Of a stretch of 64,000 nt of DNA, positions 27,649 to 37,476 are shown piece after piece. The stretch comes from Clostridiales bacterium (GTDB lineage: Bacteria > Bacillota > Clostridia > Christensenellales > JAISNN01): assembly GCA_031275485.1 (NCBI GenBank), contig JAISOS010000073.1, forward strand, positions 1-64,000, written 5' to 3'. Under the pieces are notes generated by a model. It saw only the letters and a list, made by a program, of their open reading frames with translations. It searched no databases and had not been told where the DNA came from. How positions within the stretch are numbered: the first letter of the stretch is position 1; each line of letters starts with the position of its first letter. The translations under genes and the position numbers were made by a program.

Positions 27649-29571
27649 TTATTTTACGCGCAATGCCCTAAGGGCGTTAAACACGGCGAGGACGGCAACG
27701 CCCACGTCGGCAAAAACGGCGAGCCACATATCCGCTAAACCGAGAACGGAGAACAGCAGGACGGCAAATTTGACGGAGATAGCTAGAACCGTGTTTTGAG
27801 CGGCGATGGACAGCGTTTTTTTGGAAACACGTATGGCTACGGCTATTTTCGACGGCTCGTCCGTCATAAGCACGACGTCTGCGGCTTCTACGGCGGCGTC
27901 CGAGCCCAAACAGCCCATAGCCACGCCTATATCCGCGCGCGCGAGCACGGGCGCGTCGTTTATGCCGTCGCCCGCGAAAATCAGCTTGCCTTTCGCCGAC
28001 TTGCGTTTGAATAATTCTTCGAGCTTTTCCGCCTTGTCCTGAGGCAACAGACCTGCCGCGAAGTCGCCGATACCGAGCGCGGCGGCGATTTTTTTCGCTT
28101 CGGCGGGCGAGTCGCCCGTCAGCATGGCTATGTGCTTTACGCCTGCGGCTTTTAGATCGGACACGGCCTTTTTTGCGTCGTCCTTGATTTCGTCGGATAC
28201 GGCGAGCATTCCTTCATATTTCCCGTCGACGGCTATATAAACCGCCGTTCCGGAAAATTCGGCGGCAATTTCGTTGTCGAAAAACTCCGCTTTACCGGAA
28301 TCGGCGATTTTGTCGTCCGTGATTTCCGCGCCGATTTTCGCCATAAAGCGGGCGTTTCCCGCGTAAATTTTTTTTGAGCCGACGATAGCGGATACGCCGT
28401 AGCCGGCTATTTCCTCCGCGTCCTTTATAATATTCTCGGATATTTTGCCGCCGCGCGCTATGAACGCGTCTTTTACGGCGAGCGCGACGGGGTGCGCGGA
28501 GTAGTTTTCGGCATGCGCCGCGAGAGATAACAGCTCGTATTCTGAGAGACGCGGCGAGGAAACCGCGCCGATTTTGAACGCGCCCTTTGTGAGCGTACCC
28601 GTCTTGTCGAATACGACGATTTCGGCGCGTGCGAGAGCCTCCAAATAATTGCCGCCTTTTATGAGTATGCCTTTTTTTGACGCGCCGCCGAGTCCTCCGA
28701 AAAAGCTCATCGGAATGGAAATGACAAGCGCGCACGGACATGACACAACGAGGAAAGTCAGAGCGCGGTAGAGCCAGGCGGGGAAGCTGTTCCAGCCCGT
28801 AAGCGCGGGCGGCGCGACCGCCAAAACCGCCGCGACGGCGACGACGGCGGGAGTATAGTACCGCGCGAATTTCGTGATGAAGTTTTCCGAATTAGATTTT
28901 TTCGAGCTTGCGTTTTCCACGAGGTCGAGGATTTTGCTTACCGTCGATTCGCCGAACGCCCTCGTTACGCGCGCGGTTATTACGCCGTTTAAATTTACGC
29001 AGCCGCTCAGAATTTCCGAGCCCTCGAACACGTCGCGGGGAGCGGATTCGCCTGTCAGCGCGGCGGCGTCCACCGAGGACGAGCCTTCCGTAATCACGGC
29101 GTCGAGCGGGATTTTTTCGCCGGGCGCGACGACAATCAGATCGCCCGCCTTTACCTCGCAGGGGTCAACCCTGACGGTTCCGCCGCCGTCATTTCTCACA
29201 AGGTTGGCATAGTCGGGGCGTATGTCCATAAGCGCGGCGATGGATTTTCTGGATTTCGCGACGGCGAAGCTCTGACACGCCTCGCCCGCTTGATAGAAAA
29301 GCATGACCGCGACAGCCTCCGGATATTCGCTGATACAAAACGCGCCCGCCGCCGCTATCGTCATCAAAAAGTTTTCGTCGAAAATTCTGCCCTTTAATAT
29401 GTTCCTGAAAGCGCGCAGAAAAACCTCGCCGCCCGTGATTAAAAGCGCGGCAAGATATGGAATGAACGTTAGATAACTTGGGATAAAATTTAATAATCCC
29501 GCGTAATCCCCCGCTAGAACGGTTGCGAAAACCGCCGCGCCGACGGCGAGGCGCACGATTGTTTTTTTCAT
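27649..29571 (-). CDS. P1B-2-type heavy-metal ATPase (Zn/Cd/Pb exporter)
   Basis: 640 residues from ATG 29571, chosen because AAGGAG (29579-29584) precedes it with a 7-nt spacer. P-type ATPase motifs: TGES in the actuator domain, CPC in the sixth membrane helix (VVSCPCALVIS, about 287), the phosphorylated Asp in DKTGTLTKG (about 330), the HP locus (YSAHPVALA), MLTGD and GDGINDAPVL. Membrane helix 7 carries QNTVLAISVK (Asn...Lys) and helix 8 carries ADVGVAVL (Asp), the pattern for Zn2+/Cd2+/Pb2+ pumps (CadA/ZntA) rather than copper pumps. It lacks the usual N-terminal HMA domain, which is encoded separately upstream. Likely co-regulated with the arsR gene at 30465-30830. Confidence 0.93.
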   Translation of the reverse strand: MKKTIVRLAVGAAVFATVLAGDYAGLLNFIPSYLTFIPYLAALLITGGEVFLRAFRNILKGRIFDENFLMTIAAAGAFCISEYPEAVAVMLFYQAGEACQSFAVAKSRKSIAALMDIRPDYANLVRNDGGGTVRVDPCEVKAGDLIVVAPGEKIPLDAVITEGSSSVDAAALTGESAPRDVFEGSEILSGCVNLNGVITARVTRAFGESTVSKILDLVENASSKKSNSENFITKFARYYTPAVVAVAAVLAVAPPALTGWNSFPAWLYRALTFLVVSCPCALVISIPMSFFGGLGGASKKGILIKGGNYLEALARAEIVVFDKTGTLTKGAFKIGAVSSPRLSEYELLSLAAHAENYSAHPVALAVKDAFIARGGKISENIIKDAEEIAGYGVSAIVGSKKIYAGNARFMAKIGAEITDDKIADSGKAEFFDNEIAAEFSGTAVYIAVDGKYEGMLAVSDEIKDDAKKAVSDLKAAGVKHIAMLTGDSPAEAKKIAAALGIGDFAAGLLPQDKAEKLEELFKRKSAKGKLIFAGDGINDAPVLARADIGVAMGCLGSDAAVEAADVVLMTDEPSKIAVAIRVSKKTLSIAAQNTVLAISVKFAVLLFSVLGLADMWLAVFADVGVAVLAVFNALRALRVK

Positions 29572-29604
29572 ATGTCGGCTCCTTGTTTTTTTATTTTTTA
29601 AGAT

Positions 29605-29665
29605 TCCGCAGGGAAACCTTTTATGAACAAAAAGGCTTTCCCCGCGCTCCTTCCCCAAAAAATCG
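29605..29665 (-). repeat. Family A repeat A10 before the metal ATPase
   Basis: CAGGGAAACCTTTT / AAAAAGGCTTTCCCCGC arms with loop ATGAAC; the head on the minus strand is CGATTTTTTGGGGAAGG. Tail faces the ATPase start 33 bp away. Confidence 0.8.
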
Positions 29666-29920
29666 ACGTCTACAATGTTATGCAAAGCGGCGCAGTCTTA
29701 CGAATGGAAAGAAAAAGCCTCTTTTAGAGAGAAAGCAAAACGAAACGTTATCCTCCGTTGAAAAATCTCTCCGTAACACTTTTTTTCTTTCGTAAAAACT
29801 TAGCGCAAATCCCCTTTTTCTTTTGCAAATGCAAAAGAACTTAGTTGCGGCATTTCCCTAATGCCGAGCAAAAAATATAACCGCAATAGTTGGTTTGAAT
29901 GTAAACATTAAAACACACAT
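29666..29920. other. Gene-free stretch between HMA gene and ATPase
   Basis: No gene. Two small hairpins are visible: CTTTTGCA/TGCAAAAG near 29830 and CGGCATT/AATGCCG near 29848. Confidence 0.5.
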
Positions 29921-29985
29921 TAAGTTTTTTGAGAAAGAGACCCGAGCGGGAAGCCTTTGTTAAAAGGTTTCCCTCGCACAAATCC
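29921..29985 (+). repeat. Family A repeat A11 after the HMA gene
   Basis: Head AAGTTTTTTGAGAAAGAG, arms GCGGGAAGCCTTTG / AAAAGGTTTCCCTCGC, tail 21 bp from the HMA stop. Confidence 0.75.
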
Positions 29986-30006
29986 TTTTAAAAAAATTAA
30001 AAAATT

Positions 30007-30228
30007 TCAGCGCGCCGTGAGCTTTGCGTCCGGTTCGATTTTTTTAACGGCTTTTTCGGCGAGTTTGACGATTTCGTCCATACTCGACTCGGAGGCGTTA
30101 ATGGACATTCTGCCGGTCATAAAATTCAGCGAGCAAGCTTCCACGCCGTCTATCGCGGCGATTTTTTTCTCCATCTTGGCGGCGCAATTCGCGCAGTCGA
30201 GATTTTCCACTCTGAATATTTTAGTCAT
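30007..30228 (-). CDS. Stand-alone HMA-domain metal-binding protein
   Basis: 73 residues, one heavy-metal-associated ferredoxin-like domain. The metal site is LDCANCAAKMEKK with Cys12 and Cys15. LDCANCAAK is the form seen at the N terminus of ZntA/CadA-type pumps, rather than the MxCxxC of copper chaperones. It lies between the regulator and the ATPase on the same strand, so it probably acts as the separated metal-binding domain of the pump. AAGGAG is present before ATG 30228 (CTCCTT at 30237-30242). An alternative is a general CopZ-like chaperone. Confidence 0.88.
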   Translation of the reverse strand: MTKIFRVENLDCANCAAKMEKKIAAIDGVEACSLNFMTGRMSINASESSMDEIVKLAEKAVKKIEPDAKLTAR

Positions 30229-30303
30229 AATGTAAACTCCTTGTTAAGAATATTTTTGATTTCTTATTCGTTCGACAGTTAGGATAACGTATATTTTTTG
30301 CCC

Positions 30304-30378
30304 GTTGATACGCTATTCGCCCGCCTCGAATATATTTCCGATATGCCTGTCGGCGAGGGATAGAGAACGCATTCGCCC
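30304..30378 (-). pseudogene. Remnant of a second arsR copy (C-terminal end only)
   Basis: The minus strand reads SLADRHIGNIFEAGE, then a stop (TAG), then RIN. This aligns without gaps with the C-terminal SLADDHIKNIFEAGREHIN of the intact regulator next to it. The similarity extends over roughly 65 bp of DNA and fades upstream. It is a partial duplication of the 3' end of arsR, lying directly downstream of the intact gene. Whether it is expressed cannot be told. Confidence 0.75.
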
Positions 30379-30464
30379 GATGCGGCAAAAGCTTACGGGG
30401 ACGGTCGTTTTATAAAGCCGAATAGCCGCCGCTTGATTCGCCGCCGTATAAATTTCCGCGTTTT

Positions 30465-30830
30465 TTACTCGTTGATATGCTCTCTGCCCGCTTCGAATAT
30501 GTTTTTAATATGATCGTCGGCGAGGGAATAGAATACGACTTTACCTTCGCGGCGGAAATTTACGAGGTTTGTTTGTTTCAAAAAACTAAGTTGATGGGAG
30601 ATCGCCGACTTCGAGGCGTTGAGGAGTACGGCAAGGTCGCAGACGCAAAGCTCTTGCTCGTCGAGCGCCCAAATGATTTTTACGCGGGTGCTGTCGCCGA
30701 ATACCTTGAAAAAGGTTGAAAGGCGGTTAAATTCATCGGATTTCGGCATTTTTCCTCTGACCTTTTCCACTGCGTCGCCGTGTATAACGTCGCAGTCGCA
30801 GAGAGATTCTCTTTCATTCGTTTCTTTCAT
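30465..30830 (-). CDS. ArsR/SmtB-family metal sensor (CadC-like repressor)
   Basis: 121 residues, a winged-helix repressor with recognition helix ASKSAISHQLSFLKQ (about 73-87). Metal ligands are placed as in CadC: the alpha3N site has Cys11, Cys13 in the N-terminal CDCDVIH and Cys62, Cys64 in ELCVCDL; the alpha5 dimer site has Asp105, His107, His118 and Glu121, with exactly the CadC spacing (2, 11, 3). It should bind Cd/Pb/Zn and release DNA. A matching operator lies in its own promoter. CTTT-rich but adequate ribosome site (AAAAGGAGC) precedes ATG 30830. It most likely represses itself, the HMA gene and the ATPase. Confidence 0.93.
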   Translation of the reverse strand: MKETNERESLCDCDVIHGDAVEKVRGKMPKSDEFNRLSTFFKVFGDSTRVKIIWALDEQELCVCDLAVLLNASKSAISHQLSFLKQTNLVNFRREGKVVFYSLADDHIKNIFEAGREHINE

Positions 30831-31283: not shown

Positions 31284-34200
31284 TTAGTCGTCTCTAAACT
31301 TGTCGTATTCGTCGCGGATTTCCCGAACGGCAGGGGAAACGCCTCTTTGTCTGCTCTTAGCGGCCTTGAACACGGTCAGCTTGCCTTTGAATATTTTCTC
31401 GTTGACGAACCGCAACGCGGCGTCTTTCTTTCTCTGATAGAAGTAAACAAGCACTATGACTACGGTCAGACCGCCCACGACCGCAGATGATATGACCAGC
31501 CATTGGAGATTCGGCGCGGCGTTGCCGGCGGGTTCATCGTCAACCGGCGGATTGATAGTTGTGGAGTCGGGCACGCGCAGGAAAGCGACGGTGTCGAATT
31601 TTTTGAGTACGGCGGACGCGTTGCCCTTACCCGTGTAATCCTTACCGGCATTGTCATAATCATCCTCAAAAGCGGCGAGCAGGCTTTCATAATCGTCTGC
31701 GGAGCCGGAGAATTTCTTTATAGTAAAATTGTCGATACCGACTACGCCGCGCATGCCGTTGTCGGAATTGCCCAGACCGAACGACAGGTTGACGGAGGAA
31801 ATAGACGAAGCCATTTCGTTATAAACGTAGAATGTGAGCTTGGTATATCCGTAAACCGATATGCCGTCGTCATCACCGGGATCCGCGTCCGCAAATGCGC
31901 CGTCTCCGTAGCCGTAGAGTAAGCGCTGATCGTAAACGGTTTTCGTGTCGGGACCGTCCGAACGGATATTAAAGGTAATGGACAGCGTGTCGAGCGTCAG
32001 CGATACCGCCGCGTTGCCGCCGTCCGCGAGGTCGAGCGTCTTGACATAGACGGAAACCTCGTATATCGTCTTTGACGAGAAAGTCTTTGACGACGATTTA
32101 TAGGTGTGGGAAAGATCGTCCGAATTCAGCCATATGACGAGCATATTCCTGCCCATGCCGCCGTAGAGCCGATCGATAGGGTCATCCACGTCCGTCAGGA
32201 CGTTTTTGACGTTCGTTTCCAAATCTATTACGCCCGCGACGACCTCGGAGGACGAGCCTTTATTGGTCGTTCCGATCCAGCCGATAGGCGTATAGAGGTA
32301 TTTTTTCTTATCCTCGATAGGCCGTTTGTCTTCCTCTTCGTCTTCCTCATTGTTATTGTTCTCGTCATCCCCGGCGCTTTCGATCGGCAGGTTGTCGTTG
32401 TCCGTTACGAACGTACTCTTATTGTCGCCGTAGCTGTCGAAGCTGTCGGTAACGTAGGTGATAGCGATAAAATATGTGGAATCTCTAAGCCCGTAAGCAA
32501 TCCATTTGCCCTCGACGGTGATAGGGGAAGTCCGGTCAAACATGGCGTAATCGCCGTTAGACTCGCCGTTGTTGACGATATAATTCACGACGGCGTCGAA
32601 ATATTCGGAGGCGTAATAATCGGTAAGTCCTACCGTTATATCCGAAACGGTTTCGACGCGGATATTGTCGAACAGCACGACGCCCGTCGAATAGGCGGTC
32701 TTTTCCTTGTTCCCGAGCCAGAATTCAAGATTCACGCTGACGCCGGACTGTCCGATTTCGACGTAAAAAACGTATTCGCGCCAGTCGGTTCCGAGATTTT
32801 CAAGTTTATACTGCGTCTTTTGCGCAATGCCGTCGGGCGTGTAAATCATAGACGGCGAGGTTGTGCTCGACGTGAGGTAGATATACGCGTTGTCGGGCGT
32901 GCCGGAGAGAACTATCGCCATAACCGAAATGCGGTAGTAGGTATTGGCGGACAAGGATTTCGAAGAAGAGGTTTTATAACCGTAGGTAAGACTCATAGAG
33001 TCCGCGCCGCCCTCGCCGTCGAGAACTCTGTCGGTCAGCATAAGAAGGGTGTTGGATTTATTGAGCAGAGAATCCTCCGGCAGACTGCCGTAAACTACGT
33101 CGTAAGCCTTAGCCTTTATGTCATCTTTGTGCGCTTCGATATCGCCGGCTGATTTTATCCAATCCGCGTCGAAGCCGAATATGTCGTTCATACCGTAATC
33201 GAACGCGAGCGAGGCGAGCAACTTATAATTGTCAAGGTCGATTATGCCCGACAAAACGTCGTATTTTGTCAGCGTTTTACCGCCCTCGTAAATCTTTCCG
33301 TCCTGGAAAGTCCACGATGACGGCACGCCCGGCATAGTCCACACGCCGTCGTCGCCGTATTTGGAATTCGCCGCGTCGATAGTGTCGAATTCGCCGTTGG
33401 TAATGCCGCCTACGGTCGAGAGCGTTTCCGTCGCGAACTCGTATTTTTTAGCGTGGGTGCCAGTCGACGCGGAATTGTATTCGCCGTACGTGATTTTATA
33501 GAAACTCGGATAGACTATATAAAGATCGCCCTTTGCGAGCGTTTCGGGAGAGGTGTAGTTGCCCGAGCCGAACACTATTTCAAGGTCGATATATTTTGAA
33601 TTTTGGAAAGCGTGGCTACCCGCAATATAGAATACTACCTCCGTCCAGCCGTCGTTGTCCGTATCCTCAGTCGTAACCACTCCCGTAACGCTTGAAAGCG
33701 CGGCGCGGTCGTAGGTTTTGCCGTCGTCGCCGTCGTATATGCCTTCGCCCTTTTTGTTCTCCGTGTATTGGACGACATAGAGACTTACGGAGGAGGCGGA
33801 GTTTTTTGGCAGGTTGGCGGTCTTAATCCATACGGAAAGCCTATAATAGCCGAGAGGCGCGATCTCGAACGCGCCGAGTCCGTTGTCGCTTGCGGATGTC
33901 TGCGCGCTTGACGGTTTGATTGTGAATATACCGTAGCCGTCTATCGACAGACTGAGAACGTTGCCCTTACCCTCCATAACATAAGGCAGACCCGCATTCT
34001 CCGGAGACTCTATCACGCCGAAAAAATAATCGCTTTCGTCCACCGGCTTATACACGGGCGTGCTTGAGGAAATTTTTTCGGGGTCTATGTCGTTCGGCTG
34101 TTTCAAAGACCAACTGTCTGCGGCGTTGCTGTCGAAAAAGTCCCAATTTTCTATAAGGTTGCCGTTTTCGTCGGAGCTTATATCGGCGACGACGTAGCTC

Positions 34201-36599
34201 CTTACCGAATAGCCGTTCTCGCCAAAGTCCGCGTCGTTTGTGGTAACCGTTTTGTCGGGCAGTATGCCGGAGACGCTCGCGTCGAACTCATAGCCGGACG
34301 ACAGATCCGTATGGTTTTCTAACTCCGCGAAGGAGTCCGCGTATTCGAGCCGCAGCGTGTCTACGAACATAAGCCCCTTGACGTGCGTGCTCACGTCCTC
34401 CGCGCCGCCCTCGCCGAGATTGTACGATATGGCAAAGGTGGTATTTTGGAATTGGTTTGCGCGGACGTAGAATATATATTCCTCCCATTCGCCTTCGGTT
34501 ACTATGCCTTTGATTTCTATAACCGTCGAGCCTGCGGTCAGCTTGAGATTTCCGCCGAGAAGCTCGTTCACGGACGCGCCGCCCGCTAAAAGCTCCTTGT
34601 TGTACGCCTTGGTTATCGGCGTGCCCTCGCCGTTGTTGTCCTGATAGTATCTGTCCATGCCGTATTTGTATGAGGTGGAGTAAAAACTCGCGGAAGCGGA
34701 AGACGACTCGGAATCCGCAAAATACAGAGAGGTTCCCGCAGGGTCGTCGGTAAACTTTGCGTAGGCGTTTTTGTACGCGGTGAACTGCCTGTACGTAACC
34801 GCCCAATCCGTCGGATCCTTGCCGTATTCCTCCGTTCCGTTTGAATTGGCAAGAAGGTCCAACAACGCCGCGCGTATTTCACTGTCGTACTCGGGCGTTT
34901 CAAATAACTCTACCTCCGGAGTTTCGGGATCCTCGTCATGATCCCAGGTTTTCGGGACGTCCGGAGTTTCGGGGTTCTCGTCGTGATCCCAGTATACGTA
35001 TTCGGCAAAATTCAACGGGTTATAGGTTTCGTTTCCCGTCGCCGCGTAGGCGTCCTTAAGCCATTGGAATACGTTTTCGTCGGTAACGAATATATCGCCG
35101 TTGCTCGATGAAGACGAACTGTTATTCTTCAACGTGTAGAGCGTGTCGATAATGGATATCATGGCGTTCTCATAGGAAGTGGAGGTAATATAGCCGCCGT
35201 CGGACAGCGAATCCCTAAACGAAAGCTCGCCGGACGGCGAAACGACGTCCAGGTACCGCGTAATCGTCGTGTTCGTCTTTGTAGGTAAATTTATGCGGAT
35301 CGCGAGGCGTATGTTACTCGTCCCGTCCGTCTGGATGTATGTCGCGGCGGAATAAATTTTTGAGTAAGAGCCGTCGGTTGCCTTATAATAATCACCCGCC
35401 TTATCCGACACGTAGCTGACAAAGGAGAGGTTGTCGGTTCTGACCCACACGCTCACCGCGTAATACTTGCTGCGCTCCATGACTATGCCGCTCGTAGACG
35501 AACTCGCGTAGCCGTAGGCGGTGTAGTCCTTGTTCCAAAGCATAAGCAAAAAGCCGTCGTCGGGGAAGTCGGGCGTAGCCGCCGCCCCGCCCTGTCCCAC
35601 GGGAGTCTCCGCGATAGAAGTTCCCACGTTCGCCGCGTCGGAATTCGTATAGTCCTTTGAAACCATACCGTAGGAAATGCGCGACGAGCCGCCCGGAGCG
35701 GATGCCTTGGAGGAATCCTTCGAGGCTCCCGCAACGGTGCTGTAGTCGTTAGGGGAAACGGGAGCGCCGTCCTCCTTGTATGTGGAGGAGGACGCGTCAA
35801 AATTCGGGTTAGGCAAAGCGAGAGAAATTATTGTTTCGGCCGGTTTTTCAGAAGCGGCGGACGACTCGTCGTATTCTTTTTTTGTAAGCTCCCTCGCCGT
35901 TACGTGGTCGAAAAATACCGCGAAAGAACCGGCCTCGCTCGCCGTTCCGTTCCAAAGACGCACGGATACGGATTTGGAGCTTGTCTTGTGCGCCGCGATA
36001 TAGAAAGTATAGGTTTTCCACGCGTTCTCTGTGTCGATGGCGCCCGAATCGTACCATGCCGAGCCGCGAAGCTGTATGTGCGCTTTCGCGCCTTTCATCG
36101 TGTAGACGGATACTTTCAATTCGTAATACTTGCCCGCCGCCGCGGACAGAGACTGACTGTAATAGTAAGACGTCTTTTCCAACGAATTATCCTCGCCGCT
36201 GTAAATCATAAGCACATAGGGATCGTTTGTGGCGGTCTTATTATCTCCGTCATAATTTGTGAACGGATTCGGAACGTTCGCGGACCAGTTCTTTTTCGAC
36301 GATTCGTATGCCGCCGCCGCAGTGTTGATTATGCCAGCTTTTAGCTGTTCCGTGGCAATCGACGAAGCGCCGCTGATTCCGTTCGTACCCGACCAGCTTG
36401 TCGCGGTGTACGGCGCGTCCGTGCCCGAATACTTCGTGAAATCGCCGTTGGTTATGAGATTCGTAACCGCCGCCTCATCCCATGTTACGCCGCCGTCCGT
36501 ATTCTCGTCCGTGCAGGACGCGAGCGTAAGCAACAGCGACAAAATCAATACAAAACAGATTAAAAAACGCGAAAGCTTCTTTTTTTGCAAATTATCCAT
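31284..36599 (-). CDS. Giant surface lipoprotein with several CBM-like modules and a C-terminal membrane helix
   Basis: 1771 residues. Residues 1-29 are a lipoprotein signal ending LASC (Cys29). The body contains beta-sandwich modules that each start with an Asn-Gly/Asp-Phe motif (LITNGDFTKYS about 47; LPNPNFDAS about 258; LIENWDFFDS about 835; ITNGEFDTID about 1090) and close with FDN/FDH-type strands (FFDHVTAREL, LFDNIRVETV, GIDNFTIKKF). This is the layout of carbohydrate-binding modules of the CBM4/9 type, so binding of a sugar polymer is a fair inference. No catalytic domain is recognisable. Near the end lie a Pro-rich spacer, one hydrophobic helix (WLVISSAVVGGLTVVIVLVY) and a basic tail of about 60 residues. 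Lipobox and C-terminal helix together are unusual. A 45-bp tandem repeat encodes WDHDENPETPDV-like units. TAAGGTGA precedes the ATG. Confidence 0.8.
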   Translation of the reverse strand: MDNLQKKKLSRFLICFVLILSLLLTLASCTDENTDGGVTWDEAAVTNLITNGDFTKYSGTDAPYTATSWSGTNGISGASSIATEQLKAGIINTAAAAYESSKKNWSANVPNPFTNYDGDNKTATNDPYVLMIYSGEDNSLEKTSYYYSQSLSAAAGKYYELKVSVYTMKGAKAHIQLRGSAWYDSGAIDTENAWKTYTFYIAAHKTSSKSVSVRLWNGTASEAGSFAVFFDHVTARELTKKEYDESSAASEKPAETIISLALPNPNFDASSSTYKEDGAPVSPNDYSTVAGASKDSSKASAPGGSSRISYGMVSKDYTNSDAANVGTSIAETPVGQGGAAATPDFPDDGFLLMLWNKDYTAYGYASSSTSGIVMERSKYYAVSVWVRTDNLSFVSYVSDKAGDYYKATDGSYSKIYSAATYIQTDGTSNIRLAIRINLPTKTNTTITRYLDVVSPSGELSFRDSLSDGGYITSTSYENAMISIIDTLYTLKNNSSSSSSNGDIFVTDENVFQWLKDAYAATGNETYNPLNFAEYVYWDHDENPETPDVPKTWDHDEDPETPEVELFETPEYDSEIRAALLDLLANSNGTEEYGKDPTDWAVTYRQFTAYKNAYAKFTDDPAGTSLYFADSESSSASASFYSTSYKYGMDRYYQDNNGEGTPITKAYNKELLAGGASVNELLGGNLKLTAGSTVIEIKGIVTEGEWEEYIFYVRANQFQNTTFAISYNLGEGGAEDVSTHVKGLMFVDTLRLEYADSFAELENHTDLSSGYEFDASVSGILPDKTVTTNDADFGENGYSVRSYVVADISSDENGNLIENWDFFDSNAADSWSLKQPNDIDPEKISSSTPVYKPVDESDYFFGVIESPENAGLPYVMEGKGNVLSLSIDGYGIFTIKPSSAQTSASDNGLGAFEIAPLGYYRLSVWIKTANLPKNSASSVSLYVVQYTENKKGEGIYDGDDGKTYDRAALSSVTGVVTTEDTDNDGWTEVVFYIAGSHAFQNSKYIDLEIVFGSGNYTSPETLAKGDLYIVYPSFYKITYGEYNSASTGTHAKKYEFATETLSTVGGITNGEFDTIDAANSKYGDDGVWTMPGVPSSWTFQDGKIYEGGKTLTKYDVLSGIIDLDNYKLLASLAFDYGMNDIFGFDADWIKSAGDIEAHKDDIKAKAYDVVYGSLPEDSLLNKSNTLLMLTDRVLDGEGGADSMSLTYGYKTSSSKSLSANTYYRISVMAIVLSGTPDNAYIYLTSSTTSPSMIYTPDGIAQKTQYKLENLGTDWREYVFYVEIGQSGVSVNLEFWLGNKEKTAYSTGVVLFDNIRVETVSDITVGLTDYYASEYFDAVVNYIVNNGESNGDYAMFDRTSPITVEGKWIAYGLRDSTYFIAITYVTDSFDSYGDNKSTFVTDNDNLPIESAGDDENNNNEEDEEEDKRPIEDKKKYLYTPIGWIGTTNKGSSSEVVAGVIDLETNVKNVLTDVDDPIDRLYGGMGRNMLVIWLNSDDLSHTYKSSSKTFSSKTIYEVSVYVKTLDLADGGNAAVSLTLDTLSITFNIRSDGPDTKTVYDQRLLYGYGDGAFADADPGDDDGISVYGYTKLTFYVYNEMASSISSVNLSFGLGNSDNGMRGVVGIDNFTIKKFSGSADDYESLLAAFEDDYDNAGKDYTGKGNASAVLKKFDTVAFLRVPDSTTINPPVDDEPAGNAAPNLQWLVISSAVVGGLTVVIVLVYFYQRKKDAALRFVNEKIFKGKLTVFKAAKSRQRGVSPAVREIRDEYDKFRDD
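34915..34992 (-). repeat. 45-bp in-frame tandem repeat in the lipoprotein gene
   Basis: Units at 34915-34947 and 34960-34992 share 33 bp with few changes and encode WDHDEDPETPE and WDHDENPETPD, 15 residues apart. Confidence 0.8.
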
Positions 36600-36637
36600 T
36601 TTTATTCACCTTATTTTATTTTATATTAAGAATTATA

Positions 36638-37080: not shown

Positions 37081-37476
37081 ATGTTTAAAACGTTAAATAT
37101 TCGGGCGTTAAACGAAAAAATAAACGCGGCGTTTTTGTTTATAGCGGGGGCGGCCGTCGGCTTTGTCAACGGCTTTTTCGGCGGCGGCGGGGGTATGCTC
37201 GCCGTACCTATTCTTTTTGCTCTCCGCAAAAATATCAAAAAAGCGCACGCGACCGCTATGGCGGTCATTCTGCCGTTGTCCGCCGTCAGCGGAGTTATTT
37301 ATTTTATTAAAGGCGCGGCGGATATTCCCGTACTGCTAATTGCGGGCGGCGGCGTGATTGCGGGCGGCGTTTTAGGCGCGTTCCTCCTTAAAAAAATAAA
37401 AAACGAAGGGCTCGCGCTCCTATTTTACGTCCTTATGGTTCTTTCCGGCATTTATAGCCTGGTGTGGGGAAGTTGA
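37081..37476 (+). CDS. Half-size TauE/SafE-family membrane protein
   Basis: 131 residues with four hydrophobic helices. It opens with the TauE/SafE hallmark FVNGFFGGGGGMLAVPIL (about 29-46), followed by HATAMAVILPLSAVSGVIYF, and ends after one repeat unit, at about half the usual 250 residues. Full-length family members are two such halves, thought to export or import sulfite, sulfonates or related anions. Here the protein must dimerise or pair with a second half encoded elsewhere; none is in the window. CGGAGGGAAA precedes ATG 37081. There is no sign of a frameshift or a lost second half downstream. Confidence 0.85.
   Translation: MFKTLNIRALNEKINAAFLFIAGAAVGFVNGFFGGGGGMLAVPILFALRKNIKKAHATAMAVILPLSAVSGVIYFIKGAADIPVLLIAGGGVIAGGVLGAFLLKKIKNEGLALLFYVLMVLSGIYSLVWGS

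Follow-up and report, generated by a model that had tools for sequence, protein, structure and literature searches.

On the minus strand of the window, by which we mean the whole 64,000-nucleotide stretch of DNA analysed here, an open reading frame runs from an ATG at 36599 to 31287 and is closed by a stop codon at 31284-31286. The whole gene with its stop (31284..36599) encodes a protein of 1771 amino acids, and the two are called here the giant gene and the giant protein. An earlier note made from the letters of this DNA had placed a 1771-residue protein at this position, and the frame is indeed open there. A Shine-Dalgarno-like AAGGTG precedes the ATG (36607..36612, minus strand, by direct reading). 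The frame is not open by chance, because other genera and families conserve the protein over its full length, and because its C-terminal helix recurs in every member with a C-terminus read and its lipobox recurs by clade. Its genome, assembled to 2.03 Mb in 92 contigs, contains no second copy. Among Pfam and NCBIfam models none matched the giant protein of the window. A catalytic domain was not recognised in it, as the earlier note had also judged, and a description of the family was not found in the literature.

The protein begins with a predicted lipoprotein signal peptide (residues 1-28; 36516..36599, minus strand), made up of a KKKLSR n-region, a hydrophobic core and LAS, which is followed directly by the lipobox cysteine (LAS-C29; 36513..36515, minus strand), the residue at which a lipid anchor had been proposed. 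A signal peptidase II (LspA) is encoded in the same genome (PF01252, E 2.1e-30), and the giant protein therefore carries the marks of a lipoprotein, namely a lipobox cysteine after a hydrophobic signal in a genome with signal peptidase II; lipidation itself is predicted.

Behind the cysteine, profile comparison (hhalign) and AlphaFold indicated five predicted jelly-roll modules, where at least four resembling CBM4/9 had been expected. All are encoded on the minus strand: module 1 at about residues 46-255 (35835..36464), module 2 at about 256-765 (34305..35834), split by a helical insert at about 475-618, module 3 at about 809-1045 (33465..34175), module 4 at about 1050-1330 (32610..33452) and module 5 at about 1346-1650 (31650..32564). 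Modules 1, 3, 4 and 5 were interlinked at 99.3% or more in profile-profile comparison (99.8% or more for module 1 against modules 3-5), and each half of module 2 linked to other modules at about 97-99%. The AlphaFold models (mean pLDDT 73 and 79; mostly 80-95 over module 1) showed five jelly-rolls, with the helical insert of module 2 less certain; structure models devoid of beta-sandwiches, which would have spoken against the modules, were not what was obtained. The nearest folds in Foldseek, with modest scores, were CBM70 (4d0q, TM 0.69), CBM4-2 (1k42, 0.62) and CBM16 (2zex, 0.60), followed by a tandem CBM22 (4xup, 0.46), and module 1 on its own pointed to CBM70 and CBM4. According to these models, then, the modules share a fold with CBM4, 16, 22, 61 and 70. 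The corresponding family PF02018 (CBM_4_9) was below detection in the window protein, under its curated cut-off, and exceeded the cut-off in one of the relatives shown (L028, 1.4e-12).

No other stretch of the ectodomain is hydrophobic enough for a membrane helix (hydropathy maximum 1.11, against 2.51 in the helix that ends it). This single C-terminal helix, also foreseen in the earlier note, lies at about residues 1700-1721 by hydropathy (31437..31502, minus strand), within an AlphaFold helix at 1699-1735, with acidic residues before it and basic residues after it. The basic tail that follows (about residues 1722-1771; 31287..31436, minus strand) is predicted to be cytosolic; it had been put at about 60 residues, but about 50 were counted, with a net charge of +7, of which +3 falls in the first 12 residues. 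It ends in the motif EYDKFRDD (31287..31310, minus strand), which fits the pattern [DEKRN][DEKRN][FY]x(1,2)[DEN] within the last 12 residues. The protein thus fits the single-pass, C-terminally anchored type, with one helix near the C-terminus and a basic flank that is predicted to be cytosolic.

Searching with the single sequence gave relatives in 23 of 61 order genomes, counting that of the window itself, and a profile built from 20 members matched in 177 of 247; 155 of these are counted here, being those in 15 families for which the full architecture was read, and the other 22 are weaker matches in sortase-bearing families. As judged from these matches, most genomes within a large section of one order of gut bacteria carry the giant gene. 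Among 199 further genomes sampled in the phylum there was no match at E≤1e-8, and among 147 genomes of the class (its own and some order genomes included) those of other orders gave weak matches to modules, with 3.4e-16 as the best value. A single-sequence scan of named genomes gave no relatives, and in the genus alignment the named close relatives were MAGs called 'Clostridiales bacterium'. The gene is kept in most genomes of one family (f28; f-labels denote families of the order) that measure 0.8-1.3 Mb, and its retention in such reduced genomes argues for a basic role in the cell.

Some matches fell outside this set. The strongest within the sortase-bearing families was in G044 (f13; profile match 3.6e-20). 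The window's own genome also encodes a 720-aa protein on another contig (G000:C59; L098:960-3122), with a lipobox-like cysteine at 24, several further membrane helices and one module that matches the family profile (E 1e-14), which by sequence reading resembles a glycosyltransferase. No plasmid match was found. A record filed as phage, MT835490.1 (L182, 'UNVERIFIED: Bacteriophage sp.'), holds Ppx-like and Rnf-like genes together with a full gene for a giant protein of 1262 aa; it looks like bacterial chromosome, and a phage link was rejected on that account.

Across the family, the two ends of the protein behave differently. The C-terminal helix was present in all 67 members with a C-terminus read, and in all 67 the 25 residues before it were net negative and the 12 after it net positive, a charge pattern that is that of a predicted outside-to-inside stop-transfer helix. 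The lipobox, scored with a relaxed pattern and with the start of some members uncertain, was found in 46/47 members of f1, f3, f6, f8, f10, f14, f16, f24 and f29, and in 0/21 members of f18, f19, f20, f28, f30 and f32. On a quick tree from which the signal columns had been removed, the lipobox label changed state 3 times, compared with 18.9 in shuffles, and one side of 43 rows was all lipobox. Since all 67 C-termini have the helix and the lipobox splits by clade, the predicted C-terminal anchor is constant in the family, and the predicted lipid depends on the clade, adding a second anchor in some of them but not in others.

Sortase is the enzyme by which surface proteins are usually attached to the cell wall. 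Its family (PF04203) was found in 82/247 genomes of the order (in f2, f4, f5, f11, f12, f13, f15, f17, f21, f23, f25, f26, f31 and f33) and was absent from the window's genome and from all 15 families that bear the giant gene. A single event in an ancestor may lie behind this split, and it need not have a functional meaning. Loss of the wall was rejected as its cause, since transpeptidase-type penicillin-binding proteins are encoded in 119/121 genomes and a wall is therefore expected; genomes with the giant gene usually have 1-3 hits, G001 having 5, and most of the remaining genomes have 3-11, as is also usual in the families with sortase.

The known systems that come closest each share part of this architecture. 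LPXTG adhesins likewise have a signal peptide, tandem modules and a C-terminal helix with a basic tail, but the tail of the giant protein is longer, its helix is not preceded by LPXTG (in the window) and its hosts lack sortase. The 'lipo-invert' domain NF058595, which by its name is likewise an anchoring domain of the C-terminus, matched one member of the giant family at E 5e-5. Identity of the tail with this domain was rejected: 0/41 genomes were over the cut-off and matches arose in all 14 control genomes, so the match reflects the composition of a membrane helix. A DUF4349 protein (candidate 9, PMC10924467) similarly combines a predicted lipobox with a C-terminal membrane tail but, unlike the giant family, was studied as a possible Tat substrate. 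There was no DUF4349-type Pfam match in the giant family. To our knowledge the DUF4349 protein has no tandem jelly-rolls.

These features together lead us to favour, tentatively and with a probability of roughly 0.45, the reading that the giant protein is a lineage-specific, single-copy, sortase-independent surface scaffold. The chain has a predicted Sec-type signal (of the lipoprotein type in the window's clade), followed by five CBM-type jelly-rolls in tandem and, at the C-terminus, a stop-transfer helix. It would be exported, lipidated at Cys29 by Lgt and LspA, and held again by the C-terminal helix; in clades with two anchors the ectodomain would therefore loop out between two fixed points on the cytoplasmic membrane, a shape that the earlier note had already raised. 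Simultaneous use of the two anchors is plausible because both signals are conserved over nine families and signal peptidase II is present, although proteolytic release or shedding may also occur and would leave identical signals in the sequence. The modules would project into or across the wall and could bind a glycan, either a wall or surface polymer of the cell itself or a polysaccharide from outside, while the basic tail, which is short and carries the [FY]-x-acidic motif at its end, may dock to a cytosolic or membrane-proximal partner. As the lineage lacks sortase, a membrane helix would here take the place of LPXTG anchoring.

Several other readings were weighed against this scaffold. The protein may instead be an adhesin or a device for substrate capture, its modules binding dietary, plant or mucus polysaccharide, which we regard as possible but rather doubtful. 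The folds nearest to the modules are those of CBMs that bind polysaccharide and of the surface glycan-binding protein 7kwb, and member length differs between families (846-1905 aa), both of which would suit such a function. The jelly-roll fold is common to the giant modules and to CBM4/9 (PF02018) and its relatives CBM16, 22, 61 and 70, and binding here is putative. CBM4/9-type modules are usually appended to enzymes, and such jelly-rolls also serve as structural elements that bind no sugar. Bacteroides surface glycan-binding lipoproteins (7kwb) are likewise lipid-anchored and non-catalytic, with several beta-sandwich modules; they have a lipid anchor only, sit in the outer membrane and are encoded inside polysaccharide loci. 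Against capture, no glycoside hydrolase was present among the neighbours scanned or the recurrent neighbour clusters inspected, as the earlier note had said of the window's neighbours, and the giant gene, unlike substrate-specific loci, is single-copy and occurs in nearly all genomes of its families, the reduced ones among them.

Where the earlier note did not hold was in its statement that there is no neighbouring transporter; its account of the lipobox, the modules, the C-terminal helix and the lack of a catalytic domain stood. A divergent half-size TauE/SafE (TSUP) gene (37081..37476, plus strand) starts 482 bp upstream of the giant gene, at 37081, and 37081-37473 matches the C-half of PF01925 (model positions 121-236/237; E 2.2e-21, 77 bits against a cut-off of 32.6). 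The N-half lies on another contig of the same genome (G000:C17:7043-7477), whereas the halves are adjacent in most relatives; at L093, where this was tested, the proximal gene is the C-half and the distal gene the N-half. A half-size TSUP gene, usually in an adjacent pair, was immediately upstream in 61/68 loci from 14 families, divergent in 58, with the exact distance uncertain in some loci because the stop-to-stop frame overlaps the start of the giant gene. This suggests that the giant protein might be a partner of the transporter, gathering or gating an anion, perhaps one containing sulfur, or might be co-regulated with it from the shared upstream region, and the link persists where other neighbours change, as in the window. 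However, the pair is missing at the locus in f24 (6/6) and L087, G053 and G062 have no TSUP match in the whole genome, G013 and G017 have the pair without the giant gene, and the two halves are separated in the window's own genome. The linkage is thus strong but not obligatory, ancestral gene order accounts for part of it, and we consider a partnership unlikely. The pair in G013 (L168; G013:C7:24000-42000) stands among its usual neighbours (LysM-, SpoVB- and DUF421-like by sequence reading), with the giant gene absent. Other neighbours include a P-type ATPase beside an ArsR regulator downstream of the giant gene (27649-30830) and, recurrently upstream of giant genes, Rnf-type genes and Ppx, named by sequence reading.

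The C-terminal tail raised the idea of a sensor, in which the helix would relay glycan binding outside the cell to a partner that the tail holds. In its favour are the single helix, the charged tail, which reaches 87-258 residues in f28 and f32, and the terminal motif. A motif of the [FY]-x-acidic type was present in the last 12 residues of 31/67 members compared with 3.8 expected from shuffled tails (highest count 13 in 20,000 simulations), a figure that measures enrichment and is not a significance test, because the pattern was written after the tails had been viewed and the members are related. The motif is degenerate; f14, f19 and f29 lack it, as do the tail ends in f28 and most of f6. No kinase, methyl-accepting or other signalling domain was above cut-off in Pfam or NCBIfam, and no dedicated regulator is conserved beside the giant gene, which makes a sensor quite improbable. 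Finally, the N-terminal cysteine could be there by coincidence, in a surface protein of the ordinary single-pass kind, as the six families with a non-lipid signal and the same C-terminal anchor might suggest; this is very hard to reconcile with a lipobox that is nearly invariant in nine families and clustered on the tree beyond chance.

Five findings go beyond the earlier note: the protein belongs to an order-wide family, its lipobox is distributed by clade, a TSUP pair usually lies beside its gene, many tails share a terminal motif, and sortase is missing from the families that carry it. A bolder form of the scaffold reading, to which we would give only a limited chance, is that in this sortase-less lineage the near-universal giant protein, pinned by lipid and helix, would be the main glycan-facing scaffold, with its conserved terminal peptide coupling a cytosolic partner. 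The results point to a so far undescribed, order-level family of predicted surface proteins in bacteria whose envelopes have been little studied. It provides a case in which to examine how large surface proteins are anchored when sortase is lacking, and whether two membrane anchors may serve at once.
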